In this document: positions 6,904-60,235 of the stretch, in pieces
Layout: each line of letters opens with the position of its first letter
How positions within the stretch are numbered: the first letter of the stretch is position 1
Origin: Collimonas humicola
GTDB taxonomy: Bacteria; Pseudomonadota; Gammaproteobacteria; Burkholderiales; Burkholderiaceae_D
Direction of reading: 5' to 3'
Length of the DNA: 64,000 bases
Assembly (NCBI RefSeq): GCF_018304945.1
Contig: NZ_JAGQEE010000007.1
Span: 62,001-126,000 of the forward strand
Notes under the pieces: model-generated
The model's input: only the letters and a program-made list of their open reading frames with translations
Databases searched by the model: none
What the model was told of the DNA's origin: nothing
Position numbers and translations under genes: made by a program

Positions 6904-6914
6904 GGCTGTCATCC

Positions 6915-9074: not shown

Positions 9075-9135
9075 AACCTTATCCTCACCGAGTTGCTTAT
9101 AGTTAATTTTATTTTTGTAATAGCCGTCATTATAT

Positions 9136-9154
9136 ATAAATGATAATCATTCGC
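9136..9154 (-). promoter_or_regulatory. Fur box upstream of the TonB receptor
   Basis: The 19 bases centred on ATGATAATCATT match the classical Fur consensus GATAATGATAATCATTATC at 14 of 19 positions, including an unbroken core of 13. It lies in the AT-rich gap between the receptor and the divergent aldo/keto reductase. Iron-dependent repression of the receptor operon is the expected effect. Confidence 0.82.
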
Positions 9155-9328
9155 AATTATAGTTATGTAATTTCTTAAAAGCTTTTGAAAAATGCCTCGT
9201 TTTGTTTTCGGAGACTGGGACGAATGCCGGCGGGGCGCTCTCGGCAGGGCGGGAAATAGCTCTGTAGAATCGTCCTGCCGGTAAAGCAGGATTTTCAAAG
9301 AGACCATCGTTTAAAGGAACAATCAGTC

Positions 9329-10363
9329 ATGAGTTATCACGCATCAAGCAAGCGCTACGACGACATGCAGTACCGTTTTTGCGGCCGCAGCGGCCTCAAG
9401 CTGCCGTTGTTGTCGATGGGGCTCTGGCACAATTTCGGCGACACCACCTCGCTGGCGCGCCAGCGCGAGATGGTGCATACCGCCTTCGACCTCGGCATCA
9501 CCCATTTCGACCTGGCCAACAACTACGGGCCGCCGTACGGCAGCGCCGAAACCAATTTCGGCCGCATCCTGAAGGAAGACTTGCGGCCTTACCGCGACGA
9601 GCTGATCATCTCGTCCAAGGCCGGCTGGGACATGTGGCCGGGGCCGTACGGCCAGGGCGGCGGTTCGCGCAAATACGTGCTGGCCAGCCTCGACCAGAGC
9701 CTGCAGCGCCTGGGGCTGGACTACGTCGATATCTTTTACTCGCACCGCTTCGATCCGGAGACGCCGCTGGAAGAAACCATGGGCGCGCTGGCGACCGCCG
9801 TGCAGCAGGGCAAGGCGCTGTATGTCGGCGTCTCTTCCTACTCGCCGGCCAAGACGGCGGAAGCGGCGCAGCTGCTGCGCGACTGGAAAGTGCCTTGCCT
9901 GATCCACCAGCCTTCCTACAACATGCTGAACCGCTGGATCGAGCAGGGTTTGCTGGATACGCTGCAGCAGGAAGGCATGGGCTGCATCACCTTTACCGCG
10001 CTGGCGCAGGGTTTATTGAGCGATAAATACCTGAACGGGATTCCGCAGGATGCGCGCATCAACCGCGAAGGCGGCGGTTCCCTGCAGCAGGCGCATCTGA
10101 GTCCTGAGAACCTGGCGCGGGTGCGGGCCTTGAATGAGATCGCCAAGGCGCGCGGGCAAAGCCTGGCGCAGATGGCGCTGGCCTGGGTGCTGCGCGATCC
10201 GCGCGTGACGACGACCTTGATCGGCGCCAGCAGCCCGGCGCAGATCCGGGAAAACGTAGCGGCCCTGGCGCGGCTGGATTTTTCCAAGGAAGAGCTGGCG
10301 GCGATTGATGTGCAGGCGCAGGATGGCGGGATTAATTTGTGGGAGAAGTCTTCCCAAGGGTAA
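9329..10363 (+). CDS. Aldo/keto reductase of the YghZ (L-glyceraldehyde 3-phosphate reductase) type
   Basis: This is a 344-residue NADPH-dependent oxidoreductase. The catalytic tetrad of the family is visible: Asp61 and Tyr66 (HFDLANNYGPPYG), Lys97 (SSKAGW) and His139 (YSHRFDPETPLEETMGAL). The long GPYGQGGGSRKY loop after the lysine is characteristic of the AKR14/YghZ group, which reduces small aldehydes such as methylglyoxal or glyceraldehyde phosphate. A good ribosome binding site (AAGGAAC) precedes the ATG at 9329. The gene ends just before the palindrome at 10406-10467. Its role in this neighbourhood, for example aldehyde detoxification, is an inference. Confidence 0.92.
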   Translation: MSYHASSKRYDDMQYRFCGRSGLKLPLLSMGLWHNFGDTTSLARQREMVHTAFDLGITHFDLANNYGPPYGSAETNFGRILKEDLRPYRDELIISSKAGWDMWPGPYGQGGGSRKYVLASLDQSLQRLGLDYVDIFYSHRFDPETPLEETMGALATAVQQGKALYVGVSSYSPAKTAEAAQLLRDWKVPCLIHQPSYNMLNRWIEQGLLDTLQQEGMGCITFTALAQGLLSDKYLNGIPQDARINREGGGSLQQAHLSPENLARVRALNEIAKARGQSLAQMALAWVLRDPRVTTTLIGASSPAQIRENVAALARLDFSKEELAAIDVQAQDGGINLWEKSSQG

Positions 10364-45565: not shown

Positions 45566-46160
45566 AACCCAGCTTTTTCAGGTACAGCAGGAATCGCCGT
45601 TGGCGGAACTGGGACAGTTGCTGGCGCCGCTCACGGCAGGCGCCGACCAGCCGGTCCGGCTGGAAGAGAAGCCTTTCCTGGAACTGATCAATATCAAGGG
45701 CGAGGCTGGATCAGCAAGCTTCCTGCGGGCAGTCAAGGATCGCACCGGCGTCGCATTGCCGGTGCAGCCGAATACGATCGCCGAAAGCGAACAGTTCGTC
45801 ATCTACTGGCTGGCGCCGAATGAATGGCTGATCCAGTCCAGGCAGCCGCGCCTGCCTGCGCTGTGCGCCGACCTGGCCGGCGCGCTGGCGGGAGAGTTCG
45901 CCTCGGTGGTGGATGTCAGCAGCGGCAGCACCAGCCTGGTGCTCAGCGGCACAAAGGCGCGCGCAGTCTTGCAGAAGGGCTGCCCGCTGGATTTCCATGC
46001 CGGCGTATTCAAGCCTGGCCAGTGTGCGCAGAGCCATTACTTCAAGGCCGGCGTCCTGCTTCGTCCTTTGGACGACGGCGCCTATGAACTGATCATCCGC
46101 CGCAGCTTTGCCGACTATTTCGGCCGGATCCTGCTTGACGCCTGTCAGGAGTATTTTTGA
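45555..46160 (+). CDS. soxG: Sarcosine oxidase subunit gamma
   Basis: This 201-residue subunit is GcvT/YgfZ-like in fold, with WLAPNEWLIQS, VVDVSSGSTSLVLSG and RRSFADYFGRIL as family landmarks. The start lies 11 bases inside the soxA end, with AGGAG about 10 bases before the ATG at 45555. It completes the soxBDAG set. Its stop shares one base with the ATG of the folB-like gene (TGATG). Confidence 0.93.
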   Translation: MLNETQLFQVQQESPLAELGQLLAPLTAGADQPVRLEEKPFLELINIKGEAGSASFLRAVKDRTGVALPVQPNTIAESEQFVIYWLAPNEWLIQSRQPRLPALCADLAGALAGEFASVVDVSSGSTSLVLSGTKARAVLQKGCPLDFHAGVFKPGQCAQSHYFKAGVLLRPLDDGAYELIIRRSFADYFGRILLDACQEYF

Positions 46161-46603
46161 TGAAAAGCGAGAACATCGCCAGCGGCGTGCGCTGGCAGAT
46201 TTTCGTCGAGGGCTTGTCGGCGATGACCAGTGTGGGCCTGCATCCGCACGAGCATGAAAAGCCGCAGGCGGTCGAACTGGACATCGAACTGTCGTACAAG
46301 ACCGGCGGCAGCGGCGCAGGCGACGTCGACGCCGCCGCGGTGATCGACTACGATCATTATTGCAGCGTGGTCACCGCCTTTCTGCAAGCCAAGCCGCATA
46401 CGCGCCTGCTGGAAACGCTGGCCTCGGAAGTGGCCAGCCTGTCCTTCCGCCAATTCCCCATGCTCGATGAAATACGGGTGGCGATCCACAAACCGAAGAT
46501 CCGTCCCAACACCGCCCGCCTGGGCGTAGCCTCAAGCTGGACGCGCTGGAGTTATGAAACCCTGCTTGTCTTGCAGCCCTTGGAAAGCAGTGTTGTCGCT
46601 TGA
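46160..46603 (+). CDS. Dihydroneopterin aldolase (FolB)-like protein in the sox operon
   Basis: This 147-residue protein has the FolB fold signature: IFVEGLSAMTSVGLHPHE near the N-terminus, then VIDYDHYCSVVTAFL, LLETLASEVASLSF and a conserved Lys in VAIHKPKIRPN. Canonical FolB makes the pterin precursor of folate. Its coupling to soxG (TGATG) points to a role linked to the THF demand of sarcosine oxidation, as the enzyme itself or as a paralogue with a different pterin substrate. It is longer than typical FolB (about 120) because of a C-terminal tail after the fold. Confidence 0.85.
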   Translation: MKSENIASGVRWQIFVEGLSAMTSVGLHPHEHEKPQAVELDIELSYKTGGSGAGDVDAAAVIDYDHYCSVVTAFLQAKPHTRLLETLASEVASLSFRQFPMLDEIRVAIHKPKIRPNTARLGVASSWTRWSYETLLVLQPLESSVVA

Positions 46604-46663
46604 GCGGGCAGGACCACCGGATAATAGCGGTCCTCGTAGCGGTGTGGGGCTGCAACTACGGGT

Positions 46664-47962
46664 CTATCGCGTCATCAGATATTCAGCAAGCGCATGGTAG
46701 GCTGGCAAGGAAGCGTTATCTATGTCCGGTGCATTGGCCGCCGTCTTGTTTGAAGCCAAGCGGGCGATGACCATTTTTGCTGCGGGATCGATATAGATCG
46801 CTTGCCCATGAACGCCGCGCGCCATATACGCGCCGTGCTTGTTATGCGATACCCACCACATGTTGCGATAGCTCCATCCCGGCAGGGTTCGATAGCCGGC
46901 GGCGGCAAAGAACCCCCTGTCGCCGCCATTGCGGATATCTGCCACAACGGCTTTAGGCACAATTTGCTGGCCATTGAAAAAACCGTCGAGCCGCATTGTT
47001 TCGCCAAAGCGCGCCATGTCCCGCAGGCACAAATTCAAACCGCCGCCGGCAAATTCATTGCCAATGGTGTCAACCGAGAAGTAGGCATCTTGCTCTGTTC
47101 CCAGTTTGCTCCAGATCATTTCTTGTAAATTTTCTCCCACTGATTTTTTTGTTACGCGGCGAATCACCCAGCCAAGCACATCGGTGTTAACGGTCTTGTA
47201 GGCAAAGACTTTACCGTGATCGCCTTCTTTTTCTACTGTTTCAAGATACTCATAAAACGTTTGCGGCTTGTCGTCGCCGTAATCAGGCGGACGTGGAATC
47301 ATGCTGCCGGCAAGCATATGTTTGTAAATTTCTGCGTCCTGGCAGGTATAGTCCTCAGAGTATTTGATGCCGGTAAGCATATCCAGCACTTGACGTATGG
47401 TTGCGTCGCCAAAACCGGTCCCTTCAAGTTCTTCTACATATTCGGACACCGCTGCGGTCTCATCTATCAAGCCCTCTGCAACCAGCATGGCGCCGATGGT
47501 GCCAAAAAATGATTTGGTGACTGACATCACGACATGCTGTTTTTCAGGGGTGAGCACGCCGAAATAGCGTTCATAGACGATTTTCCCGTCGTGAAGCACG
47601 ACAATTCCGTCCGTGTAGTTGGCGGCCAGCGACTGCTTCCAGGTCATTGGGGCAACGCCTACTAACGGTTGGAACGATACATTGTCTATATCCGCGTCTG
47701 CGCGCTTGTCTGCCGGTAACAGGCTGACCGGTCCGCTGCCTCGCGCTACGACAGTGCTGGGAATAAATTGGCGGGAATTGGAAAACGACCAGCGAGTTTT
47801 GGGGAACGTGGAAGAGCCGCCATCCGAGAATCTGATTATTTTATCGGGAGGGGGAGGTGAGCCGATCATCCATCCCATCTTTACCGGATCTGTCTCCTCA
47901 GCGTCTCCAGATTTTTGCGCGATTTGAACGTCCGTGTTTTGGGCTAATGCAGAATCAAACAT
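46664..47962 (-). CDS. Serine hydrolase of the beta-lactamase class C/6-aminohexanoate-dimer hydrolase type
   Basis: This 432-residue protein has the SxxK nucleophile motif S147-V-T-K150 (HVVMSVTKSF), a YKTVNTDVLGWVI segment supplying the catalytic Tyr, and a late GVHGQAIYIDP motif replacing the KTG box. This pattern is closest to NylB-like carboxylesterases rather than true beta-lactamases. An AAAGGA site supports the ATG at 47962. The N-terminus begins SALAQN, like the end of a signal peptide, but no hydrophobic core precedes it. Codon use is visibly more AT-rich than in neighbours, which suggests acquisition by transfer. Confidence 0.88.
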   Translation of the reverse strand: MFDSALAQNTDVQIAQKSGDAEETDPVKMGWMIGSPPPPDKIIRFSDGGSSTFPKTRWSFSNSRQFIPSTVVARGSGPVSLLPADKRADADIDNVSFQPLVGVAPMTWKQSLAANYTDGIVVLHDGKIVYERYFGVLTPEKQHVVMSVTKSFFGTIGAMLVAEGLIDETAAVSEYVEELEGTGFGDATIRQVLDMLTGIKYSEDYTCQDAEIYKHMLAGSMIPRPPDYGDDKPQTFYEYLETVEKEGDHGKVFAYKTVNTDVLGWVIRRVTKKSVGENLQEMIWSKLGTEQDAYFSVDTIGNEFAGGGLNLCLRDMARFGETMRLDGFFNGQQIVPKAVVADIRNGGDRGFFAAAGYRTLPGWSYRNMWWVSHNKHGAYMARGVHGQAIYIDPAAKMVIARLASNKTAANAPDIDNASLPAYHALAEYLMTR

Positions 47963-48460
47963 GTGCTATTCCTTTATATTTTATTTTTATCGTGCTCGCG
48001 CAGCAGAAAATCAAAAATATGCACATTCAATGAAAACAGTCGCGAGCTTGCGATGAATTGAGTCTGTCGGTAAAAGGCTTGAATCTGTCGATCGTCAAGG
48101 AAAATTCTTCAAATCCACGGCCTTTATACCGCAATGAATTTCTCAGTACAGCTGTCAGAGTTCGCAGTAAATGACATGATGCGCCGCACAAAAATTGCTC
48201 TCTGGATATTTTGCAGAAATCGCTGCAGGCGACGCTCGATGGGCTGGTTTGTTTTTTTAACGGGAACGCTGCAAATTTGATCAGATTCGTCTACCATTTG
48301 CCATGAGCCGCACAATTCAAACCATAACTCCACAGAATATTTTCCTTTCCCAAAAGCATCTTCAACAGCAGAGATATCGGTCGTCGAGAAACCGAATCGA
48401 TAGGCATTGTGCTAATGTCGCTGCCACAGAATTTTCGTTAGCGTATCCAGGAGACCATCA
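47963..48460. other. AT-rich spacer between the serine hydrolase and maeB
   Basis: This gap of about 500 bases has no gene I can support. It is clearly more AT-rich than its surroundings, like the adjacent hydrolase. A 69-codon open frame on the minus strand (48124-48333) has no recognisable motif and only weak start signals. AGGAGA at 48448-48453 serves maeB. Confidence 0.5.
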
Positions 48461-50770
48461 ATGAGCACCCCCACCATTCTTTCGGCGGCCGAGCAGGCCC
48501 TGCGCGATGCTGCGCTGGAATATCACCGCAGCCCGACGCGCGGCAAGATCGCCGTGGTGCCGACCAAGCCTTTGTCGAACCAGCGCGACCTGTCGCTGGC
48601 ATATTCTCCGGGCGTGGCCTACGCCTGCCTGGCGATCCATGAAGATCCTGAGATGGCGGTGGAATACACTTCGCGCGCCAACCTGGTCGGCGTGGTCACC
48701 AACGGCACCGCCGTGCTGGGCCTGGGCGATATCGGCCCGCTGGCCGGCAAGCCGGTGATGGAAGGCAAGGGCTGCCTGTTCCATAATTTCGCCGGCATCG
48801 ATGTGTTCGATATCGAATTGGCCGAACGCGATCCGGACAAGCTGGTCGAGATCATCGCGGCGCTGGAGCCGACCCTGGGCGGCATCAACCTGGAAGATAT
48901 CAAGGCGCCGGAATGTTTCTACATCGAGAAGAAGCTGCGCGAACGCATGAAGATCCCGGTCTTCCATGACGATCAGCACGGCACCGCCATCATTTCATCG
49001 GCTGCGCTGCTGAACGGCCTGGAACTGGTCAACAAGAAGATCGGCGAAGTCAAGCTGGTAGCATCAGGCGCCGGCGCCGCGGCGATTGCCTGCCTCGACC
49101 TGATGGTTGAACTCGGCGTCAAGCGCGAAAACATTTTCGTCTGCGATTCGCGCGGCGTGATCCACGACAAGCGTGAAGACAAGCTGGATGTTTCCAAGCA
49201 GCGCTACCAGCAAAGCACCGACGCGCGCACCTTGGCCGATGCGATCGTCGGCGCCGACGTCTTCCTCGGCTGTTCGGCGCCTGGCGTGCTGTCGCAGGAT
49301 ATGGTCAAGGCCATGGGCAGCCAGCCTATCATCCTGGCGCTGGCCAATCCGGAACCGGAAATCCGTCCGGAGCTGGCGCTGGAAGCGCGGCCGGATTGCA
49401 TCATCGCCACCGGCCGTTCGGATTATCCGAACCAGGTCAACAACGTGCTGTGCTTCCCTTACATTTTCCGCGGCGCGCTCGATTGCGGCGCCACCAGCAT
49501 CACCGAAGCCATGAAAGTGGCCTGCGTGCGCGAGATCGCCGACCTGACCAAGGCCGAGATCAGCGAAGAAGTGGCGTCGGCCTATGCCGGACAGGAATTG
49601 CAGTTCGGCCCGGAATACATCATTCCAAAGCCTTTCGATTCGCGCCTGATCCTGCGCATCGCGCCTGCGGTGGCGCGCGCCGCCGAAGAGTCGGGCGTGG
49701 CGACGCGTCCGATCAAGGACATGGATGCCTATCGCCAGTCGCTGATGCGTTTCGTCAGCCACACCGGCATGTTCATGCGCCCGGTATTCCTGGCTGCGCG
49801 CGGCGAGCCGCAGCGCATCGTCTATGCAGAGGGCGAAGACGAGCGCGTGCTGCGCGCGGTGCAGATCGCACTGGAAGAAAAGCTGGTGCGGCCTATCCTG
49901 ATCGGCCGTCCGGCCGTGATCGAAGCGCGTATCAAGCGCGCCGGCCTGCGCTTGCAGGCGGGACGCGATTTCGAGCTGATCAATCCGGAAGACGACGTCC
50001 GTTTCCGCCAGTACTGGGAGGCCTATCACGAGATCAAGGCGCGCGACGGCGTGACGCCGGAGATGGCGAAATCGACCTTGCGCCGTTCGAACACGACCAT
50101 TGCGTCGATGCTGGTCGAGCTGGGCGGCGCCGACGGCATGCTGTGTGGCCTGGTGGGGCGCTTCGACAGCCACTTGGAGCATGTCAGCGACATCATCGGC
50201 CTGCGCGAGGGCGCCAAAGGCTTCGCCGCCATGAACGGCCTGGTGCTGGACAAGCACACTTTGTTCATCGCCGACACCTTCGTCAACGACGATCCGAGCG
50301 CAGAACAGCTGGCCGACATTGCTGCCATGGCGGTGGAAGAAGTGCGCCGTTTCGGCGTGCCGCCCAAGGTGGCTTTCCTGTCGCATTCGATGTTCGGCTC
50401 CAGCAACCGGCCTTCGGCCAAGAAGATGCGCGCTGCGCGCGACCTGTTCGTCAAGCGCATGCCGGATGTCGAGGCCGATGGCGAGATGCACGGCGATGCC
50501 GCCTTGAGCGCGGAATTGCGCGCCCAATACCTGCCGAAATCGACCTTGTCGGGCGATGCCAATGTGCTGATCACGCCGAACCTGGATGCTGCCAACATCC
50601 TGTTCAACGTGCTGAAGATGACCGGTGGCCAGGGCGTGACGGTGGGGCCGGTGCTGCTGGGCGCTGCTGCCCCGGTGCACATCCTGAACCCGTCGGCCAC
50701 GGTGCGCCGCGTCGTCAACATGACAGCGCTGGTGGTGGCGAATGCGATTTCAGCGAAGCAGAAAGTGTGA
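48461..50770 (+). CDS. maeB: NADP-dependent malic enzyme (MaeB, with phosphotransacetylase-like C-terminal domain)
   Basis: This 769-residue enzyme converts malate to pyruvate and CO2. The malic enzyme part spans about 1-425, with [38 protein letters not shown] and [13 protein letters not shown]. The C-terminal Pta-like domain (about 440-769) is regulatory, not catalytic, in MaeB enzymes; SHSMFGSSN and [19 protein letters not shown] belong to it. AGGAG precedes the ATG. A strong terminator follows 36 bases after the stop. It supplies NADPH and pyruvate, relevant for growth on amines but not specific to it. Confidence 0.96.
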
Positions 50771-50805
50771 TCGCTTAGTGTGATCGCTTAATATCTCAGA
50801 CCTGT

Positions 50806-50847
50806 AAAAAATCCCCGGCGCGACATCTGTAGCGCCGGGGATTTTTT
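50806..50847 (+). terminator. Rho-independent terminator of maeB
   Basis: This is a perfect 16-base stem, arms 50806-50821 and 50832-50847, with a 10-base loop. The GC core is tccccggcgc, flanked by six A on the left and six T on the right. The A/T flanks would let it work in both directions, though only maeB is nearby. Confidence 0.93.
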
Positions 50848-50962
50848 ATGCATGGATGGCTGAGGAAAGTCGCCGGGCTGCGTCCGGCGAACATGCCGCG
50901 GCCGCTGTCCTGGTTCAACAGCGCCGTCCTCGACGGTTCCGCATTTCTATATATTGCAAAAC

Positions 50963-50982
50963 AGCTGTACGTTCATACAGTG
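50963..50982 (+). promoter_or_regulatory. LexA (SOS) box upstream of the FAN1-helicase operon
   Basis: CTGT at 50965-50968 and ACAG at 50977-50980 are separated by exactly eight bases, matching the CTGT-N8-ACAG LexA consensus used by gamma- and betaproteobacteria. A TAATAT candidate -10 element begins at 50984, so bound LexA would block this promoter. The box lies 55 bases before the ATG of the VRR-NUC gene. Confidence 0.78.
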
Positions 50983-51036
50983 CTAATATACGCAAAAGCG
51001 ACGCTTATTGCGGCACTGAGCCCCTGCACCCGGAAC

Positions 51037-52695
51037 ATGAACAAAACGCTGGAAAACCGTTTCTACTACCTGGACAACTTCGTCACCGTTGTGGACTCGG
51101 TGCGCGCCCGCTATCGTCATTTGCTGAGCCTGGAAGAGCAGGCCTTCGTCGATGGTTTCGGCAATCTGCCGCAAGCCTCGGCGGCATTGCTGGTGCGGAT
51201 GGTGATGCGCAAGGGCGAGCTGTTCCGGCTCAGCAAGCTGCGTTACGATGAAATCGGCTGCGCCGCCAGCGCGGCGGCGGCGCTGATTGCAGCGGGCTGG
51301 GTCGAGCCGCGGCCGCTGCTGGATATCGGCCAGCTGTTCCGGGTACTGAACAAGGCCGAGATCGCCGCCGCTTTCCCGCAGCTGCGGCAGGTGGCGCGCA
51401 AGAGCGAGCAGCTGGATTTCCTGCGGCAGGCAGGAGGCGGTGCGGCGGGCGTGCGCAGCCTGGAGGAATGGTGGCCCGGCGCCGCCGACAGCCTGCTGCA
51501 GCTATGCGAACCGGTGGCTGCGCTGTGCGACCGCCTGCGCCTGATGTTTTTCGGTAACCTGTACCAGGACTGGTCGGAATTCGTGCTGTCCGAACTGGGC
51601 ATCTTCAAATATGAGCAGGTCGATCTGTCGCCCGCCGCGCAAGGCTTCAGCAGCCGCCAGGATATCGATGACTACCTGCATCTGCATGCCTGCCGCGAAC
51701 GCTTTCTCGGCGGCGAGGAGCCGCAGGCGGTAGCGGCGGATATATCCGCCCAGCCCTATCCGAACCCATGGTTGGAAGAGCGCCGCGGCAAGCTGCTGTT
51801 CCAGGTCGCCCAGCACTATGAACGCAATGGCGAGCTGGCGCCGGCGCTGCGCCTGTATGCCGGCAGCAGCCGGCCCGGCGCGCGCCTGCGGGCGATCCGG
51901 GTGCTGGAGCGCTGCGGCCAGCCTGAAGCAGCATTTGCATTGGCGCAGCAGGCAGAACAGCAGGCCGAGAGTGAAGCCGAACAGCAGCAACTGCTGCGCG
52001 TCATGCCGCGTCTGCGGCGCGCGCTTGGCCATCCCAGATTGACGCCGTCCGCTGCCGTCAGCATCGCACAGCACGAAATCGCCTTGCCGCGGCCTGCTCC
52101 GGGCATCTCGGTCGAGCAGGCGCTCAGCCGGCACCTGGCCTGTGCCGATGCGCCGGCGCTGTATGTCGAAAACGCCCTGATCAATTCGCTGTTCGGCCTG
52201 TTGTTCTGGGATGCCGTGTTCACGCCGGTGCCTGGCGCTTTCTTCCATCCGTTCCAGAGCGGACCGGCCGATTTGCACGGTCCTGATTTCCGTTTGCGCC
52301 GGGCGCTGCAGTTCGAGGCCGGCTTTGCACTGCTGCGTAGCGGCGGCTACCGGCAGGCCATCCTGCACAATTTCCGCATCAAGGAAAATACCCAGTCGCC
52401 GTTCGTGTTCTGGGGCGCGATCGATGCGCCATTGCTGGCTATGGCGCTGGATTGCCTGCCGCCCCAGCACCTGCAGCTATGTTTCGAACGCATCCTGCAA
52501 GACATCAAGAGCAACCGTTCCGGCCTGCCTGATCTGATCCAGTTCTGGCCGGCGGAGCAGCGCTACCGGATGATCGAGGTCAAGGGCCCGGGCGACCGCC
52601 TGCAAGACAACCAGATCCGCTGGCTGGATTATTTCGCCCGGCATGACATCCCGGTTGCTGTGTATTACGTGCAATGGACCGGGGAGAGCGCGTGA
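51037..52695 (+). CDS. FAN1-like structure-specific nuclease (VRR-NUC domain)
   Basis: This 552-residue protein is collinear with bacterial FAN1. The nuclease triad sits in the C-terminal VRR-NUC domain, Asp499 (GLPDLIQFW), Glu514 and Lys516 (MIEVKGPGDRLQDNQ), with an upstream Glu378 (YVENALINSLFG). These match the spacing of the catalytic residues I recall for P. aeruginosa FAN1 (386, 507, 522, 524) at a constant offset of eight. The middle region is helical repeat-like. FAN1 cuts 5' flaps and unhooks interstrand crosslinks. I used the ATG at 51037 because the frame upstream covers the LexA box and promoter. The stop overlaps the helicase start (TGATG). Confidence 0.92.
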   Translation: MNKTLENRFYYLDNFVTVVDSVRARYRHLLSLEEQAFVDGFGNLPQASAALLVRMVMRKGELFRLSKLRYDEIGCAASAAAALIAAGWVEPRPLLDIGQLFRVLNKAEIAAAFPQLRQVARKSEQLDFLRQAGGGAAGVRSLEEWWPGAADSLLQLCEPVAALCDRLRLMFFGNLYQDWSEFVLSELGIFKYEQVDLSPAAQGFSSRQDIDDYLHLHACRERFLGGEEPQAVAADISAQPYPNPWLEERRGKLLFQVAQHYERNGELAPALRLYAGSSRPGARLRAIRVLERCGQPEAAFALAQQAEQQAESEAEQQQLLRVMPRLRRALGHPRLTPSAAVSIAQHEIALPRPAPGISVEQALSRHLACADAPALYVENALINSLFGLLFWDAVFTPVPGAFFHPFQSGPADLHGPDFRLRRALQFEAGFALLRSGGYRQAILHNFRIKENTQSPFVFWGAIDAPLLAMALDCLPPQHLQLCFERILQDIKSNRSGLPDLIQFWPAEQRYRMIEVKGPGDRLQDNQIRWLDYFARHDIPVAVYYVQWTGESA

Positions 52696-54953
52696 TGGCG
52701 ACGGCCCCTGCGCAATACGTGGTCGCCGTGCGCGCGCTGTGCGAATTCACGGCCAAGCAGGGCGATCTCGACCTGCGCTTCACACCGTCGCCGACGGCGC
52801 AGGAAGGCATCACCGGCCATGCGGTGGTGGCGGCGCGCCGTTCCCCAGGTTATGAGGCGGAAGTCAGCCTGAGCGGCAGCTTTGGTCCCTTGCTGGTGCG
52901 CGGCCGCGCCGACGGCTACGATCCGCGCCTCAACCGGCTGGAGGAAGTCAAGACTTATCGCGGCGACCTCGGCCGCATGCCGGACAACCATCGCCATCTG
53001 CACTGGGCGCAGGTCAGGATCTACGGCCACCTGCTGTGCCAGAGCCGCGGCCTGGACGAGCTGCAGCTGGCGCTGGTCTACTACGATATCGCCAGCCAGA
53101 AGGAAACCTTGCTGACCGAGCACCTGACCGCGGCACTATTGCGGCAATTCTTCGAAGATCATTGCCAGCGCTTCCTGGCCTGGGCCGAACAGGAAATGGC
53201 CCATCGCACTGCGCGCGACGTGCAGCTGACGGCGCTGCAGTTTCCGCATGCGGATTTCCGTCCCGGCCAGCGCATCATGGCCGAAGCTGTCTACAAAAGC
53301 GCCGTCAGCGGCCGCTGCCTGCTGGCGCAGGCGCCGACCGGTATCGGCAAGACCGTCGGCAGCCTGTTTCCGATGCTGAAGGCGAGTCCGGGCCAGGCCT
53401 TGGACAAGATCTTTTTCCTGGCGGCCAAGACTTCCGGAAGGGCGCTGACGCTGGAAGCCGTGGCGCGCATCAGGCAAAGTGCGCCGGCCTTGTCCTTGCG
53501 CGTGCTGGAACTGGTGGCGCGAGACAAGGCGTGCGAACATCCGGACAAAGCCTGCCACGGCGAATCCTGCCCCTTGGCGCAAGGCTTCTACGACCGCTTG
53601 CCGCAGGCGCGCAGTGCGGCGTTCGACGCCGGTGCGCTGGACCGCGATGGCTTGCGCCGGGTGGCTGCCGAACATCGTGTCTGTCCCTATTACCTGAGCC
53701 AGGAAATGGCGAGCTGGTCGGATGTGATCGTCGGCGACTACAACTACTATTTCGACATCAGCGCCATGCTGTATGGCATGGCCAGCGTCAACCAGTGGCG
53801 GGTGGGAGTGCTGGTGGACGAGGCGCACAATATGATAGACCGGGCGCGCAAGATGTATTCCGCGGAAATGGAATACAGCCAGCTGAAAGCCCTGCGCCGC
53901 AACGCGCCGCCGGCGCTCAAGCGCGGGCTGGACCGGGTCAGCCGGCAGTGGAACGGCCTGGGCAAGGAGCAGGAAGGCGACTACCTGCATTATGCGGAAA
54001 TCCCTGAGGCGTTTGTCGGCGCGCTGCTGCAGGCGGTGGCGGATATCACCGACTATATGGTGGAGCATCCGGCCGCCATGGACAGCCATCTGCAGCAATT
54101 TTATTTCGACGCTTTGCACTTTACCCGCATGGCCGAGCTGTTCGGCTCGCATTCCTTGTTCGACATCACACGCCAAAACGGGCAGGGCAGCACCCTTTGC
54201 ATCCGCAATATCGTGCCCGCGCCTTTCCTGACGCCACGTTTCGCCGCAGCGCGCAGCACGGTGCTGTTTTCCGCCACCTTGAGCCCCTGGCATTTTTACA
54301 GCGATACGCTGGGCATGCCGGCTGACACTGCCTGGATCGATGTCCCGTCGCCATTCACCGCGGACCAGCTGCAGGTGCAGCTGGTGACCGCCATCTCGAC
54401 CCGTTTCCAGCACCGCGATCGTTCGCTGGCGCCTATCGTCGAACTGATCGCGCGCCAGTACCGGCAGCAGGCCGGCAATTACCTGATGTTTTTCAGCAGC
54501 TACGATTATCTGGAAAAGGTCGCCGCGCTGTTCGCCGAGCAGTATCCGGAGATTCCGCTATGGCTGCAGGCGCGCCGCATGGATGAACGGGAAAGGGAAG
54601 ATTTCCTGGCGCGCTTTACCGACACCTCGCAAGGGATAGGCTTTGCGGTGCTGGGCGGCTCGTTCGCCGAGGGTATCGACCTGCCTGGCGCGCGCTTGAT
54701 CGGCGCTTTCATCGCCACACTGGGGCTGCCGCAGATCAATCCGGTCAATGAACAGATCATGCGCCGCATGGGGGAAACCTTCGGCAACGGCTACGACTAC
54801 ACCTATCTCTATCCCGGCATGCAAAAAGTGGTGCAGGCTGCCGGCCGCGTGATCCGCACCCAGCAGGACCGCGGCGTGGTGTACCTGATCGACGATCGCT
54901 TTGCGCGGCCGGAAATCAGGCTGCTGCTGCCGGCATGGTGGCAGGTTGCGTGA
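52695..54953 (+). CDS. XPD/DinG-family DNA helicase with N-terminal PD-(D/E)XK nuclease domain
   Basis: This 752-residue protein has two parts. Residues about 1-165 carry a RecB/Cas4-like nuclease signature: RGRADGYD (Asp73), LEEVKTYR (Glu84, Lys86) and HWAQVRIYGHLL (Gln106, Tyr110). Residues about 180-752 form a superfamily 2 Rad3/XPD helicase: Walker A APTGIGKT (Lys219), four cysteines for an iron-sulphur cluster (280, 287, 292, 330), DEAH at 375-378, and late motifs GGSFAEGIDLPG and QAAGRVIRTQQDRG. It is coupled to the FAN1-like gene and so probably acts with it in SOS-induced DNA repair, unwinding and trimming damaged DNA. Confidence 0.93.
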   Translation: MATAPAQYVVAVRALCEFTAKQGDLDLRFTPSPTAQEGITGHAVVAARRSPGYEAEVSLSGSFGPLLVRGRADGYDPRLNRLEEVKTYRGDLGRMPDNHRHLHWAQVRIYGHLLCQSRGLDELQLALVYYDIASQKETLLTEHLTAALLRQFFEDHCQRFLAWAEQEMAHRTARDVQLTALQFPHADFRPGQRIMAEAVYKSAVSGRCLLAQAPTGIGKTVGSLFPMLKASPGQALDKIFFLAAKTSGRALTLEAVARIRQSAPALSLRVLELVARDKACEHPDKACHGESCPLAQGFYDRLPQARSAAFDAGALDRDGLRRVAAEHRVCPYYLSQEMASWSDVIVGDYNYYFDISAMLYGMASVNQWRVGVLVDEAHNMIDRARKMYSAEMEYSQLKALRRNAPPALKRGLDRVSRQWNGLGKEQEGDYLHYAEIPEAFVGALLQAVADITDYMVEHPAAMDSHLQQFYFDALHFTRMAELFGSHSLFDITRQNGQGSTLCIRNIVPAPFLTPRFAAARSTVLFSATLSPWHFYSDTLGMPADTAWIDVPSPFTADQLQVQLVTAISTRFQHRDRSLAPIVELIARQYRQQAGNYLMFFSSYDYLEKVAALFAEQYPEIPLWLQARRMDEREREDFLARFTDTSQGIGFAVLGGSFAEGIDLPGARLIGAFIATLGLPQINPVNEQIMRRMGETFGNGYDYTYLYPGMQKVVQAAGRVIRTQQDRGVVYLIDDRFARPEIRLLLPAWWQVA

Positions 54954-54977
54954 GCCGGTGCTGTCGCTGCGGAGCCG

Positions 54978-55223
54978 TCAATCGAACAGCTCTTGCCAGA
55001 AGCTTTCCTTTTTCTTGGGACGGCGGTAGTCGTTGTAATGCGAGCCATGCTGCGGCGCGCGGAGCTCCGGCTGTGCGGCTGTTTCCTGCGTCGATTGCTG
55101 GATGATCTTGTCCAGTTCGCCGCGGTCCAGCCAGACCCCGCGGCAGCCGGGACAATAATCGATTTCAATGCTCAGGCGCTCGCTCATCACCAGCTCCTTG
55201 TCTTTACATACCGGGCAATACAT
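54978..55223 (-). CDS. Small zf-TFIIB domain protein
   Basis: This 81-residue protein has a zinc ribbon, YCPVCKDKELV and YCPGCRGVWLDRGELDKI, then a charged, disordered tail ending KKKESFWQELFD. Members are widespread in bacteria with no established role. It lies between the convergent helicase gene and the YccA-like gene. The gap to the helicase stop is 24 bases. Confidence 0.88.
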   Translation of the reverse strand: MYCPVCKDKELVMSERLSIEIDYCPGCRGVWLDRGELDKIIQQSTQETAAQPELRAPQHGSHYNDYRRPKKKESFWQELFD

Positions 55224-55252
55224 AAACGTTCTCCATTATCCTGAAAGTCGAT

Positions 55253-55279
55253 CGGGCCGGACGGCGTACGCCCGGCCCG
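55253..55279 (-). terminator. Hairpin downstream of the YccA-like gene
   Basis: The 8-base stem cgggccgg/ccggcccg (55253-55260 and 55272-55279) has an 11-base loop and lies immediately after the YccA-like stop on the minus strand. The U-tract is poor, so this may be a weak terminator or an mRNA 3'-end stabiliser before the zf-TFIIB gene. Confidence 0.45.
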
Positions 55280-55283
55280 GGGT

Positions 55284-55970
55284 TTACTCTTTGCTGACGA
55301 AGCCGAGCAGCTGCAGCAGGCTGGTAAACAGGCTGAAAATCGAAACGAACAGGCTGACCGTCGCCATTACGTAATTGGTCTCGCCGCCGCGCACGATATT
55401 GTTGGTTTCAAACAAAATCATGCCGGACATCAGCAGCACGAACACTGACGATACGGTCAGCGACAAGGCCGGGATGCTGAAGAACAGCGCCGCCAGTCCC
55501 GCCACGAAAGCCACCAGCACGCCCACTGTCAGCATGCCGCCCATGAAGGACAGGTCGCGCTTGGTGACCCGCGCATAGGCTGACATCCCCAGGAAAATGA
55601 TGGCGGTGCCGGCCAGCGCCATCGTCACGGTCAAGCCGCCGTTGGCCATGCTCAGGTACTTGCCGAGGATCGGTCCCAGGGTGTAGCCCATGAAGCCGGT
55701 CAGCGCGAACACCAGGCCGACGCCGAGGCCGCGGTCGCGGTATTTGGTGACCAGGAACAGCAGGCCGAAATAGCCGGCCAGGGTGATGACGATGCCAGGC
55801 CCTGGCAGGTTCAGCGCCAGCGCGGCAGCGGCGACGATGGCGCTGAAGCCCAGGCACAGCGACAGCAGCAGGTAGGTGTTGCGCAAGACCTGGCGCGCGG
55901 CGCCGTCCATCACCGTGGTGGCGGCATAGCTGGCGCCGCGGTTGCGCAGGGTGTCGTAGCGGTTGTTCAT
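55284..55970 (-). CDS. Bax inhibitor-1/YccA family membrane protein
   Basis: This 228-residue inner-membrane protein has seven hydrophobic segments. The family landmarks are LRNTYLLLSLCLGFSAIVAA at about residue 29, FALTGFMGYTLGPIL, and a C-terminal DE-like site replaced by the segment MILFETNNIVRGG. YccA-type members associate with the FtsH protease and modulate membrane protein quality control. It follows the HPF-like gene by 16 bases on the same strand, so both may share a transcript. Confidence 0.93.
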   Translation of the reverse strand: MNNRYDTLRNRGASYAATTVMDGAARQVLRNTYLLLSLCLGFSAIVAAAALALNLPGPGIVITLAGYFGLLFLVTKYRDRGLGVGLVFALTGFMGYTLGPILGKYLSMANGGLTVTMALAGTAIIFLGMSAYARVTKRDLSFMGGMLTVGVLVAFVAGLAALFFSIPALSLTVSSVFVLLMSGMILFETNNIVRGGETNYVMATVSLFVSIFSLFTSLLQLLGFVSKE

Positions 55971-55986
55971 GATGTTCTTTCGTTAA

Positions 55987-56349
55987 TTAGATAACCGCCG
56001 GCTCAAGCGCCGGCGCCAGGTACTTGGTGTGGGAAATCGATCTGGTGCGCGCCAGCAGGCGTGCGGTCGCCTGGGCGGCGCGATGCGCAGCCTGGTCGAC
56101 CATGGCTGCAATATCGCTGCCTTTCTCCGTGATCACCACGGTCGGCAAGCCGTTCAGGGTCAGCTGGATCTGGCATTGCTTGTCGATGCCGCCGCGCGGA
56201 CCGTTCTGGTCGCTGATGCGCACCTTCATTGCCTGGATGTTGTAGTGCTTGCGGTCCAGCGCGAGGCTGAGCCGGTTGCTCACATACTCGCGCAGTCTGC
56301 GGCTGAGTTTTACACCTTTGGTAGCGATGATCGCGATGGTCGGTTTCAT
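55987..56349 (-). CDS. HPF/RaiA-like ribosome-associated protein
   Basis: This 120-residue protein has the sigma-54 modulation/HPF fold pattern: beta strand IAIIATKGVKLS, helix LREYVSNRLSLALDR, strand IQAMKVRISDQNGPRGGIDKQC and helix MVDQAAHRAAQATARLLAR. I chose the ATG at 56349, with GGAG upstream, over a longer frame. Short HPF proteins bind the 30S decoding region and inactivate ribosomes under stress. This one sits outside the usual rpoN neighbourhood, so a specialised or accessory role is possible. Confidence 0.82.
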   Translation of the reverse strand: MKPTIAIIATKGVKLSRRLREYVSNRLSLALDRKHYNIQAMKVRISDQNGPRGGIDKQCQIQLTLNGLPTVVITEKGSDIAAMVDQAAHRAAQATARLLARTRSISHTKYLAPALEPAVI

Positions 56350-56447
56350 CAAAGACTCCAGTTCGTTTGAGGAGCAATCATCATATGGCCGCGACATGAA
56401 TTAAAAAAGCGAAGATAATCGAAGAATTACTTCGGAAAAACAGAACA

Positions 56448-57368
56448 ATGAAACCATCGTCGCTGAACTTTCGGCATCTTCACTATTTCTGGGTGGTGGC
56501 CAAGGAAGGCAGCGTCACGCGCGCCGCCGAACGGCTGGGGCTGGCGGTGCAAACCGTCAGTGCCCAGCTGTCGCTGCTGGAACAAGAGGTCGGCAAGGCG
56601 CTGCTGGCGCCGCAAGGGCGGCGGCTGGTGCTGACCGAGGCAGGGCGCCTGGCGCTCGGCTACGCCGACCAGATTTTCCTGCTGGGCGAGCAGATGCAGG
56701 AGGCGCTGGCGGCGGCCGACGATGAACCTACCATGCGGCTGGCGGTGGGAATTTCAGATTCACTGCCGAAACTGATTTCTGCACGTCTTCTGGAAGCCGC
56801 CCTGCGGCTGCCGCAGCGTGTCAAGCTGGTGTGTTTTGAAGACAAGTTCGAAGCGCTGCTGGGCGACCTCACGCTGCACAAGCTGGACGTGGTGCTGACC
56901 GACCGGCCGGCGCCGTCCAGTACGGCGCTGCGGGTGTTCAGCCATTTGCTGGGCGAAAGCGATATCGCGCTGTTCGGCAGCAAGGAGCTGGCCAAGCGCT
57001 ATCGCCCCAAATTCCCGGCCAGCCTGCGCGGTGCGCCTGTGCTGCTGCCGACCCGCAACAACGTGATTCGCGGCCGTATCGATCACTGGTTCGAAACTCG
57101 CGAATTAAGGCCGGATGTGGTGGGCGAATTCGACGACAATGCCTTGCTGAACACTTTCGGCCGCAGCGGCCTCGGCCTGTTCCCGGCGCCGTCCGCGCTG
57201 GCGGCGGATGTCGAGGAACAGTTCGGCGCAGTGCTGATCGGCCAGCTGGAGCAGGTGCATGAACAGTTTTACGCGGTCTCGAATGAACGCAAGATCAAGC
57301 ATCCGGCGGTGGAGGCGATCCTGTCTGCCATCCATGGCCGGGTGTTTACCCAGGCCAGGCGCAGGTGA
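56448..57368 (+). CDS. LysR-family regulator, NhaR-like
   Basis: This 306-residue LysR protein has a winged HTH at residues about 8-66 (HLHYFWVVAKEGSVTRAAER, VQTVSAQLSLLEQEVG). The NhaR-type opening LNFRHLHYFWVVAKEGSV and a substrate-binding domain with LTDRPAPSS support this sub-family. NhaR activates a sodium/proton antiporter and stress genes; no antiporter gene is in the window, so the target is open. It is divergent from the HPF-like gene. Confidence 0.9.
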   Translation: MKPSSLNFRHLHYFWVVAKEGSVTRAAERLGLAVQTVSAQLSLLEQEVGKALLAPQGRRLVLTEAGRLALGYADQIFLLGEQMQEALAAADDEPTMRLAVGISDSLPKLISARLLEAALRLPQRVKLVCFEDKFEALLGDLTLHKLDVVLTDRPAPSSTALRVFSHLLGESDIALFGSKELAKRYRPKFPASLRGAPVLLPTRNNVIRGRIDHWFETRELRPDVVGEFDDNALLNTFGRSGLGLFPAPSALAADVEEQFGAVLIGQLEQVHEQFYAVSNERKIKHPAVEAILSAIHGRVFTQARRR

Positions 57369-57384
57369 CAGCCATCGCGATCTG

Positions 57385-58416
57385 CTATGAGATTGACAAG
57401 GCCCGCCTGTGTTCTCCCGGACTGCTTCCGGTCCATTTCTTGAAGGCGCGATGGAAGGCGCTGGGATCGGCAAAGCCGAGGCTGATGGCGATTTCTTCGA
57501 TGCTCCGGGCCGAGCCGCTCAGGTAGTTGATCGCCAGGTCGCGCCGCAAATTGTCCTTGATCGCCTGGTACGATTGTCCTTCCTGGCTGAGCTTGCGGCG
57601 CAGCGTCGAGGCTGGCGTTTGCAGCTGCCGCGCCAAGCTGTCGAAATCCGACCATTCATTCATCGGCAGCTGGCGCAGGTGGCGGCGGATGGTGGCTGCC
57701 AGGCTGTCGTGGTTGCTGTATTTCACCAGCAGGTTGCCGGGCGCTTCGCGCAGGAAGGCGGGCAGCGTACGCTGGTTCTGCACGATCGGCAGCGCCAGGC
57801 AGGCGGCGTCGAAGGTGATGCTGGTGCGCGCCTGGCCGAAGCGCGCCTGGTCGCAGAAGCGGATCTTGTAGTCGAGGCTGGCGGGCGGTTCGTCGCAGCG
57901 GAAATCGGCTGACAGCAGCTGGATGCGGCGGCCGATCAGCCAGCTGCCGACGCCATGCACGAACATCAGGAAGGTGGCGTAGGTGAACATGCGGCGCGGG
58001 CTGCCGCTTTCATTGATGACGATGCAGGCCACGCCATCTTGTTGCGACAGGCTCGCCGAAATGTCATCCAGCACCAGTCGCAGGAAATCCAGCATGCGCG
58101 ACAAGGCCTTGCCCAGGTTGGCGCTGTGCAGGGCGCTGCGGCACAGCAGGTTGAAGCTGCCGACCCGCATCGGATGGCTGTCCATGCCGAAGAATTCGTC
58201 GTCGGTCGCTTGCGAGATCAGATACCACAGGCGGCCGTAATTGGCCGCCGCCACCCGCGCGTGCGACGACGCCAGCAGGCGCGGCGAAATTCCCGCCTGC
58301 AGCAGCAGCGCATCGGCATCCATGCCGCGCAGGCGCATGCAGTGCAGCGCTTCGCCGACGAGGCCAATGGCGATCGTCCCTTTCTCCCAGTCTTCCATAA
58401 GCCCCAAATTAGTCAT
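57385..58416 (-). CDS. AraC-family regulator with Arabinose_bd-type sensor domain
   Basis: This 343-residue protein has a PF12625-type sensor (about 20-215, LLLQAGISPRLLASSHARV near the start) and an AraC HTH at the C-terminus (DFDSLARQLQTPASTLRRKL and IEEIAISLGFADPSAFHRAFKKWTG). GGA at six bases supports the ATG at 58416. It is divergent from the acyl-CoA synthetase/SDR operon, the usual arrangement for an activator of a fatty or organic acid catabolic unit. The inducer is unknown. Confidence 0.92.
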   Translation of the reverse strand: MTNLGLMEDWEKGTIAIGLVGEALHCMRLRGMDADALLLQAGISPRLLASSHARVAAANYGRLWYLISQATDDEFFGMDSHPMRVGSFNLLCRSALHSANLGKALSRMLDFLRLVLDDISASLSQQDGVACIVINESGSPRRMFTYATFLMFVHGVGSWLIGRRIQLLSADFRCDEPPASLDYKIRFCDQARFGQARTSITFDAACLALPIVQNQRTLPAFLREAPGNLLVKYSNHDSLAATIRRHLRQLPMNEWSDFDSLARQLQTPASTLRRKLSQEGQSYQAIKDNLRRDLAINYLSGSARSIEEIAISLGFADPSAFHRAFKKWTGSSPGEHRRALSIS

Positions 58417-58561
58417 TGCAATTCCGCTCAGCCGTAATGATCGCTTTTAACATGGCCCCAAGTCACTAAATATCCTAGACTTAGCCGCAGCAGCTCGATT
58501 TCTCATGACAACAAAACAAGAACTGGCCAAGCCAGTCATTTTAGGTTAGAGGAGAACATTC

Positions 58562-60235
58562 ATGTCATCTGGTTTCCCAAGCGCAGCCACGGCCCATGCC
58601 ATACCGGACTATGCGCAGTTCTATGCCGATTTCAAGCTCGACAGCGTGGCCGCCGAACTGGCCGGCAACCTGGAGACGGGCGTCAATGCCAGCGTCGAAT
58701 GCTGCGACCGCCACGCTACGCCTGGCCGCATCGCCCTGAACTGGGAAGGCAAGGATGGCCGCAGCGCCAGCTATACCTTCGCCCAGCTGCAGGAGTTGTC
58801 TGGTCGTTTTGCTAATTTCCTGAGGGCGCAGGGCGTGCAGCCGGGCGACCGCGTCGCCGGTCTGTTGCCGCGCACGCCGGAACTGTTGGTGGCGATCCTC
58901 GGCACCTGGCGCGCCGGCGCTGTGTACCAGCCGCTGTTTACCGCCTTCGGTTCGAAATCGATCGAGTACCGGGTTGCCGCCAGCGAGGCCAGGCTGATCG
59001 TCACCGATGCCGACAATCGCCACAAGCTGGACGAAGTGCCGCAATGCCCGCCGGTCATGACCGTCAACGGCGCCAGCGCGCTGGCCGCCGGCGACTTCGG
59101 TTTCTGGGATGAGATGGGCAAGCACTCGACCGAATTTGCGCCGGTGATGCGCAAGGCCGAAGACGCCTTCATCATGTTGTTCACCTCCGGCACCACCGGC
59201 CCGGCCAAGGGCGTATCGGTGCCGCTGAAGGCGCTGCTGTCGTTCTATGTCTATACGCGCTATGCGGTCGACCTGCGGCCCGAGGATGCCTTCTGGAACA
59301 TCGCCGATCCGGGCTGGGCCTACGGTCTGTATTACTGCGTGACCGGGCCGCTGATGATGGGCCACGCGATTACTTTTTACGAAGGTTCCTTCACCGTAGA
59401 AAGCACCTACCGCATCATCAAGAAATACGGCATCACCAACCTGACCGGATCGCCGACCGCCTACCGCATGCTGATCGCCGCCGGCGCGGAGGCCGCGGCG
59501 CCGGTCAAAGGTCAGCTGCGCGCGGTCAGCAGCGCCGGCGAACCGCTCAACCCGGAAGTGATACGCTGGTTCCGCGAACATCTGGACACGCTGATCAACG
59601 ATCACTACGGCCAGACCGAAACCGGCATGGTGCTGTGCAATCACCATGGCTTGCAGCACGAGGTGCACATGGGTTCGGCCGGCCTTGCCATGCCGGGCTA
59701 CCGGCTGGCGGTGCTCGACGACGATGAGAAGGAACTGGGCGTCGGCGAGCCGGGCGTGCTGGCGGTGGACCGTCCGCGTTCACCCATCTACTGGTTTCAG
59801 GGCTACTGGCAGCAGGACAGCAGCCGCGACGCCAGCGACTATTACGTCACTGGCGATACGGTGGAGCTGAACCAGGATGGCAGCATCAGCTTTATCGGCC
59901 GCGGCGACGACATCATTACTTCTTCCGGCTACCGCATCGGTCCGTTCGACGTGGAAAGCGCGCTGCTGGAGCATCCGGCGGTGGTCGAGGCGGCTGTGGT
60001 CGGCAAGCCGGACCCGGAACGCACGGAACTGGTCAAGGCCTTCGTGGTCCTCGGCAAGGATTACGCGCCGAGCGCCGCGCTGACGGAGGAGCTGCAGCAA
60101 TACGTCAAGCGCCGCCTGGCCGCGCATTCCTATCCGCGCGAAATCGAATTTTTGACAGAATTACCCAAAACCCCTAGCGGCAAACTGCAGCGCTTCATCT
60201 TGCGCAACCAGGAAATCGCTAAAGCTAAACTGTAG
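58562..60235 (+). CDS. AMP-forming acyl-CoA synthetase (acetyl-CoA synthetase-like)
   Basis: This 557-residue ANL-superfamily enzyme has AMP-binding motif LFTSGTTGPAKG, INDHYGQTETGM, the ATP-binding YYVTGD segment, the GRGDDIITSSGYRIGP hinge and the acceptor-loop lysine in TPSGKLQRFILR. Length and motif variants place it near short- to medium-chain acyl-CoA synthetases. GGAGA precedes the ATG at 58562. The substrate is probably a carboxylic acid whose CoA ester is further oxidised by the SDR gene 22 bases downstream. Confidence 0.93.
   Translation: MSSGFPSAATAHAIPDYAQFYADFKLDSVAAELAGNLETGVNASVECCDRHATPGRIALNWEGKDGRSASYTFAQLQELSGRFANFLRAQGVQPGDRVAGLLPRTPELLVAILGTWRAGAVYQPLFTAFGSKSIEYRVAASEARLIVTDADNRHKLDEVPQCPPVMTVNGASALAAGDFGFWDEMGKHSTEFAPVMRKAEDAFIMLFTSGTTGPAKGVSVPLKALLSFYVYTRYAVDLRPEDAFWNIADPGWAYGLYYCVTGPLMMGHAITFYEGSFTVESTYRIIKKYGITNLTGSPTAYRMLIAAGAEAAAPVKGQLRAVSSAGEPLNPEVIRWFREHLDTLINDHYGQTETGMVLCNHHGLQHEVHMGSAGLAMPGYRLAVLDDDEKELGVGEPGVLAVDRPRSPIYWFQGYWQQDSSRDASDYYVTGDTVELNQDGSISFIGRGDDIITSSGYRIGPFDVESALLEHPAVVEAAVVGKPDPERTELVKAFVVLGKDYAPSAALTEELQQYVKRRLAAHSYPREIEFLTELPKTPSGKLQRFILRNQEIAKAKL

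Follow-up and report, generated by a model that had tools for sequence, protein, structure and literature searches.

The question raised by this locus is whether a bacterial FAN1 nuclease is coupled, in one operon controlled by DNA damage, to a helicase of the XPD/DinG type. In a 64,000-nucleotide stretch of the Collimonas humicola genome (contig NZ_JAGQEE010000007.1, positions 62,001 to 126,000; hereafter the window), an initial annotation had described a LexA (SOS) box before a FAN1-like VRR-NUC gene whose stop codon overlaps the start codon of an iron–sulfur (FeS) helicase gene, and had read the pair as a self-contained, damage-inducible unit for crosslink or flap repair. The boxed FAN1–helicase pair is confirmed. 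The predicted LexA operator, CTGTACGTTCATACAG, is a CTGT-N8-ACAG box at 50965–50980 (strand not assigned), 56 bases 5′ of the FAN1 ATG at 51037, and the FAN1 gene (51037–52695, + strand, 552 amino acids) ends in a TGA (52693–52695) whose final base, 52695, is also the first base of the ATG that opens the helicase gene (52695–54953, + strand, 752 amino acids). We consider it likely that the two genes form a LexA-repressed, damage-induced operon of FAN1 and an EndoDinG-type helicase, in which the helicase would open the duplex, its own nuclease domain would trim and FAN1 would unhook crosslinks.

The first protein carries the domains that define FAN1 (the KIAA1018 group of VRR-NUC proteins): FAN1_HTH, FANC_SAP and a C-terminal VRR_NUC, each above its Pfam gathering cut-off. 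By sequence, its best match among solved structures is Pseudomonas aeruginosa FAN1 (PaFAN1; 4r89, E 2.5e-167); other Fanconi-associated nuclease 1 chains (species not shown) match residues 358–548 at ∼1e-19 to 1e-21, and two such chains match residues 10–115 at E 7e-4 to 9e-4. The catalytic residues D499, E514 and K516 correspond to PaFAN1 D507, E522 and K524 (numbering from PMC9635880); D499 and K516 do not vary across 18 aligned FAN1 proteins, and E514 hardly does. FAN1 orthologues, including that of Pseudomonas, cut 5′ flaps, their preferred substrate (PMC4103454), and crosslink unhooking is ascribed to PaFAN1 in work that PMC12796719 cites (Gwon 2014; Jin 2018); by analogy, the FAN1 in the window would be a 5′-flap nuclease able to unhook crosslinks. 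Among the matches listed, its closest named relatives are from Collimonas (80–82% identical). A phage origin of the gene was considered and rejected, as FAN1 had no match in 50,697 phage records.

The second protein matches the Pfam families Helicase_C_2, DEAD_2 and DEAD above their gathering cut-offs and HBB below its own, and it holds four candidate FeS cysteines (C280, C287, C292 and C330), a Walker A motif at 213 and a DEAH box at 375, which bears out its description as an iron–sulfur XPD-type helicase. The full CCCC set and the XPD/DinG core are present in the window protein; C287 is missing from some distant rows of a 22-row helicase alignment. Residues 1–182 (52695–53240, + strand) matched no Pfam family, even at E 10. 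A structural model of this N-terminal domain (predicted local distance difference test score, pLDDT, 90) found as its best structural match Finegoldia magna DinG (9kqh, E 3e-13), followed at E 2e-6 to 1.4e-3 by SSO0001 (which we take to be a Cas4), RecE, EXO5, Cas4, lambda exonuclease, AddAB and MGME1, these matches beyond 9kqh having template modeling scores of only ∼0.35–0.55. Across 22 helicase proteins, with identities as low as 27%, the residues H42, E56, D73, E84, K86, Q106 and Y110 never vary. The H, E, D, E and K that section 3.7 of a review (PMC11981726) gives for the EndoDinG N-terminal domain are all present, and their strand and helix positions fit except for D73, which lies late in the third strand of our model; the review puts this D at the start of that strand. 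A model of the whole helicase (pLDDT 85) again matched 9kqh best, with XPD chains next, among them 8rev (rank 5), in which XPD is halted at an interstrand crosslink, and 9kqh also matches the full-length protein by sequence. We conclude from these models that the N terminus has a predicted PD-(D/E)XK nuclease fold and that the protein belongs to the recently named EndoDinG subgroup; endonuclease and 5′–3′ helicase activities would be expected of it. The label nuclease-helicase in the initial annotation is upheld by the predicted fold. Its analogy to FANCJ is a loose one: XPD structures do rank next best, but the closest structure is a bacterial DinG.

We surveyed the pairing in related genomes, as the initial annotation had called for, in a Burkholderiaceae sample (in the GTDB sense; the family sample), a Gammaproteobacteria sample (the class sample) and a Pseudomonadaceae sample (the family of G274, the genome that holds the P. 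resinovorans locus L011), all three group names being inferred. Among named relatives, the helicase directly follows FAN1 in 79 of 80 loci, and the 80th stops just past FAN1; these were the 80 best-scoring among at least 262 confirmed relatives and therefore lean to close ones. Across the 145 family genomes, FAN1_HTH occurs in 65 and the helicase N-terminal domain in 86, and all 65 FAN1 genomes have both (Fisher p 4e-23, descriptive only because the genomes are related). The helicase domain lies on the same strand within 2.5 kb downstream in 64 of the 65; in the remaining genome (G534) FAN1 sits close to the end of a contig and the helicase is on a different one, and in another (G590) the helicase N-terminal domain is split over two frames. 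FAN1 is found in 165 of 198 Pseudomonadaceae genomes, and the start of the helicase was seen in 29 of the best-scoring 30 of these 165 loci, with none in the 183 bases to which L176 extends past FAN1. Adjacency is thus kept well beyond close relatives. No FAN1_HTH was found in 14 named control genomes.

The pairing is looser across the class than in the window's own family. Of 274 class genomes, 13 have FAN1 above cut-off and 10 the helicase domain, with 9 in common; a further weak FAN1_HTH match (G210), below cut-off and with internal stops, was left out. The helicase lies downstream in 7 of the 12 FAN1 loci other than the window's own, in one of them (L134) after 1.1 kb; L130 meets a contig edge just past FAN1, and in G060 the helicase N-terminal domain sits on another contig (E 2e-19). 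In the aligned adjacent loci, the helicase starts between −15 and +129 bases from the FAN1 end, with L134 (1125 bases) as the sole exception. Between FAN1 and the helicase, L134 (7200–8344) holds a short piece of the helicase N-terminal domain (weak, E 6e-4) and a 39-amino-acid second fragment of the FAN1 C terminus, pieces which suggest a duplicated gene junction around an insertion. The helicase type is also found in other company. On a Legionella lytica plasmid (L184, 4154–12876), an EndoDinG-like helicase gene (5992–8433) overlaps a GIY-YIG nuclease gene (8426–9988), so that this helicase type has another nuclease as its neighbor; Ku, a protein of the UdgX family, umuD and a pair of Y-family polymerase genes lie alongside and complete a repair island. 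A 2.9-Mb Listeria record from the plasmid collection (L183, 5923–8325) encodes an EndoDinG-like helicase of full length (35% identity); FAN1 has no match in the record, and none was recognized next to the helicase.

Within the window, the flanks of the pair are consistent with a separate transcription unit. A predicted hairpin terminator (50804–50849, + strand; z −7.3) follows the upstream gene, which by eye looks like a malic enzyme gene, and isolates the pair; it came from folding, a simple sigma-70 promoter and terminator scan of 50750–51100 having returned no match. On the 3′ side the next plausible gene is convergent, as read from the open reading frames, and those around the operon (46000–60000) look by eye like housekeeping genes. 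Because of the strong hairpin upstream and the convergent gene downstream, the locus is most likely an operon of two genes with its own promoter region, containing the box at 50965–50980, in agreement with the initial annotation. An alternative longer frame from 50848 would take in the box; the FAN1 genes of sister Collimonas align from the ATG at 51037.

What ties this operon to the SOS response is the box. The host genome (5.62 Mb, 24 contigs) encodes a LexA domain (G000:C11:1254731), and the box motif stands before recA and dinB, twice before lexA, and before an imuA-like gene (names assigned by eye from the translations), so the motif fits the host LexA. In a matrix built from seven host boxes (the five just named and two unassigned), the operon box is the best site of the window, at 16.5 versus 4.8 bits. 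Strong LexA-like boxes also stand before what is seemingly the same radical-SAM-like gene, by eye, in the window genome (L099, 1480–1600) and in a P. aeruginosa-like genome (L199, 1480–1600). We then compared 110 FAN1 loci, mostly from Pseudomonas, with at least G274 and G275 counted twice. Within −150 to +20 of FAN1, 107 of them have a box that is exact (34) or has one mismatch (73), the best match being worse in 3; elsewhere in these loci (991,245 bases) there are 287 such sites (22 exact and 265 with one mismatch). In Collimonas, Undibacterium, Massilia, other betaproteobacteria and Burkholderia arboris, the box is retained while its flanks share little by eye. When boxes were searched at −260 to +20 and classed as exact, one mismatch or worse, the counts were 4/0/0 for Collimonas, 5/1/2 for other named betaproteobacteria, 9/59/0 for named Pseudomonas, 19/10/1 for the Pseudomonadaceae sample, 23/2/5 for the family sample and 2/2/8 for the class sample, the Pseudomonadaceae and family boxes being read in the best-scoring 30 of 165 and 30 of 65 FAN1 genomes, respectively.

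The box is commoner at FAN1 operons than at helicases that lack FAN1. It is present in 25 of 30 family-sample FAN1 operons versus 4 of 21 helicases without FAN1 (Fisher p 8e-6, again descriptive only because the genomes are related). The latter were searched from −200 to +20, yet all 25 positives in the FAN1 operons fall within 200 bases. The count of 21 excludes L266 and includes L249, with ∼50 bases upstream, and two plasmid-collection records, L185 and L212, which account for two of the four positives; with the family sample by itself, the count is 2 of 19. A class-sample locus (L137, 5450–7655) has a 722-amino-acid FAN1-like frame with no helicase and a box, TACTGTTTTTATAGACAGTA, at −46, and SOS control of FAN1 may therefore be independent of helicase pairing. 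With the box kept in 107 of 110 loci, amid flanks that by eye have little in common, and in 25 of 30 family loci but no more than 4 of 12 class-sample loci, comparison gives good support to reading the predicted operon as SOS controlled, and in the host it would be bound and repressed by LexA.

Published expression data from P. aeruginosa agree with damage induction. In a 2026 transcriptome (PMC12796719), the FAN1 orthologue PA1865 was induced by ultraviolet C (UV-C) and ciprofloxacin, and PA1865 and PA1866 were listed among the induced genes that belong to none of the LexA, Prt and Alp regulons. Gene order in a P. aeruginosa-like genome (G404, 96% identical to PaFAN1 over 103 residues) together with the locus numbering suggests that PA1866 is the helicase. 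In G404, CTGTAT-N6-ACAG occurs at 12 places versus 1 for the reversed control, with recA (by eye) and FAN1 among them; several of the 12 adjoin genes with no assigned name or not SOS-like. The G404 FAN1 box, CTGTATGCATGAACAG, overlaps the annotated FAN1 start codon. The deposited PaFAN1 chain starts MHEQ and aligns from residue 1 with the translation from the ATG inside this box. Because the box contains the annotated ATG, scans limited to the sequence upstream of annotated starts would miss it, and this may be why PA1865 and PA1866 were reported as UV induced yet outside known regulons; LexA control of FAN1 may have been overlooked in Pseudomonas through this overlap of operator and start codon. 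The LexA-regulated PA1044–PA1045, which includes a gene called DinG, was considered as the same operon and rejected, as the FAN1 gene is PA1865 and G404 carries two separate Helicase_C_2 genes ∼0.92 Mb apart. A permissive search of 8.5 kb surrounding the second of these genes found no box, so its published LexA control was not reproduced in this genome.

We propose the following sequence of events. DNA damage would lift LexA repression, and FAN1 and EndoDinG would be expressed together. The helicase would travel 5′–3′ on single-stranded DNA into the crosslinked or blocked duplex and open it, its PD-(D/E)XK nuclease would trim the displaced strand, and FAN1 would cut the 5′ flap next to the lesion and unhook the crosslink. 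That unwinding and trimming would expose a flap for FAN1 is suggested by the 5′-flap cleavage of FAN1 orthologues (PMC4103454) and by the crosslinker resistance that the nuclease-helicase ExoDinG of Staphylococcus aureus confers (PMC12345164). A more specific form of this proposal, on which we are evenly divided, is that FAN1 and EndoDinG are one damage-induced crosslink-unhooking machine of two nucleases and one helicase, a minimal bacterial version of a Fanconi-type pathway, with FAN1 depending on EndoDinG and not the reverse, and with its LexA control overlooked in Pseudomonas because of the start-codon overlap.

Several observations weigh against the proposed SOS-controlled pair. The operon box, at 16.5 bits, scores below the training SOS boxes (20–35 bits); 59 of the 68 named Pseudomonas boxes have one mismatch; a box with fewer than two mismatches is lacking in 8 of 12 class-sample FAN1 loci (the window's own aside) and in 5 of 30 family-sample loci; PA1865 is repressed by hydrogen peroxide (PMC12796719); and the counts all come from related genomes, so they do not stand for independent events. 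The box could be a functionless chance match, as 0.41 exact CTGT-N8-ACAG matches are expected per window, 32 of 100 shuffles contain one, and ACTGT-N8-ACAG has 41 strand hits genome-wide versus 23 for the reversed control, only an approximately two-fold excess. We accordingly rejected significance by count alone. Retention in 107 of 110 loci, amid flanks with little in common by eye, and the published induction of PA1865 (PMC12796719) make a chance box very improbable. Partners are also missing in places. As many as 20 of the 145 family genomes carry the helicase but no FAN1 (18 with the upstream stretch seen; of 21 first counted as helicase only, G565, locus L266, contains a fragment of FAN1 next to its helicase, G538, locus L249, has ∼50 bases upstream, and the upstream stretch of G548 was left out), and the helicase therefore has a role of its own. 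Conversely, 4 of the 13 class-sample FAN1 genomes (G069, G143, G195 and G256) yielded no helicase partner; completeness is 58% for G195 and 88% for G069, and the FAN1 frames of G143 and G256 are unusually long (722 and 755 amino acids). The unit that the initial annotation called self-contained is not universal. If FAN1 and the helicase were merely co-transcribed SOS genes that act independently, such solitary genes would be accounted for; we think this unlikely, as FAN1 never stands without the helicase in the 65 family FAN1 genomes, and the two genes are closely spaced in the aligned adjacent loci, L134 excepted.

The most substantial alternative accepts SOS control and places the main job of the operon at stalled forks, flaps or double-strand ends instead of crosslinks. 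The N-terminal domain folds near SSO0001, RecE and EXO5 and, at about E 0.001, lambda exonuclease, MGME1 and AddAB, which trim ends or flaps; FAN1 orthologues prefer 5′ flaps (PMC4103454); and UV-C and ciprofloxacin, the inducers of PA1865, are not classical crosslinkers (PMC12796719). Set against these points are the crosslink unhooking credited to PaFAN1 and the specificity for crosslinkers of the related S. aureus nuclease-helicase DinG (PMC12345164). We regard this alternative as possible, with a probability that deserves attention while remaining below even, and we consider a crosslink role of the operon plausible by analogy, with crosslinks presumably the main substrate and the two proteins presumably cooperating physically. 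An anti-plasmid or anti-phage module resembling CRISPR-associated DinG is, by comparison, barely credible. One PADLOC typeIV_DinG model (PDLC01439) does score 423 bits on the helicase (52695–54953), but the others score at most 38 bits among the matches listed, the helicase is weak to Csf4 models, FAN1 matches no PADLOC model and no phage record, the neighbors are housekeeping-like by eye, and no cas genes were recognized by eye among the open reading frames of 46000–60000. A CRISPR DinG assignment was rejected on the PADLOC scores. PDLC01439 hits may, as a separate matter, mislabel chromosomal EndoDinG genes as CRISPR associated.

If the proposed LexA-controlled crosslink operon is correct, bacterial FAN1 gains a candidate partner and a candidate regulator, and the UV-C induction of PA1865 and PA1866 left open by PMC12796719 would have a direct explanation. 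The pair would also offer a small model for a structure-specific nuclease and an XPD-family helicase that possibly cooperate on crosslinks, and it points to a simple bacterial route for repairing crosslinked DNA. Among the papers listed from the open-licence PMC literature, we found no description of FAN1 paired with this helicase or under LexA, and no paper combining "LexA regulon" with "VRR-NUC"; PMC9635880 notes in general terms that most VRR-NUC groups, FAN1's included, adjoin DNA-metabolism genes.

The nearest known systems each share part of this arrangement. PaFAN1 (PA1865; 4r89 and 5y7g) is the same HTH–SAP–VRR-NUC protein with the same catalytic residues, and the identical helicase type follows FAN1 in G404, whereas LexA control and a helicase partner are absent from the excerpts of its published description. 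The EndoDinG subgroup, with 9kqh, shares the PD-(D/E)XK N-terminal domain with its H, E, D, E and K and the CCCC FeS helicase (PMC11981726), but neither "FAN1" nor "VRR" occurs in the text of that review. Nuclease plus helicase against crosslink damage is already known in other forms. In S. aureus ExoDinG (SaDinG), a nuclease is fused to the DinG helicase and resistance to mitomycin C and formaldehyde needs both activities (PMC12345164); its nuclease, in contrast, is a 3′–5′ exonuclease in the same polypeptide, and PMC12345164 does not mention FAN1. Bacillus subtilis MrfAB, as described in that paper, likewise sets a nuclease and a superfamily 2 helicase against mitomycin C damage, but draws them from other families, a DEDDh exonuclease and a 3′–5′ helicase.

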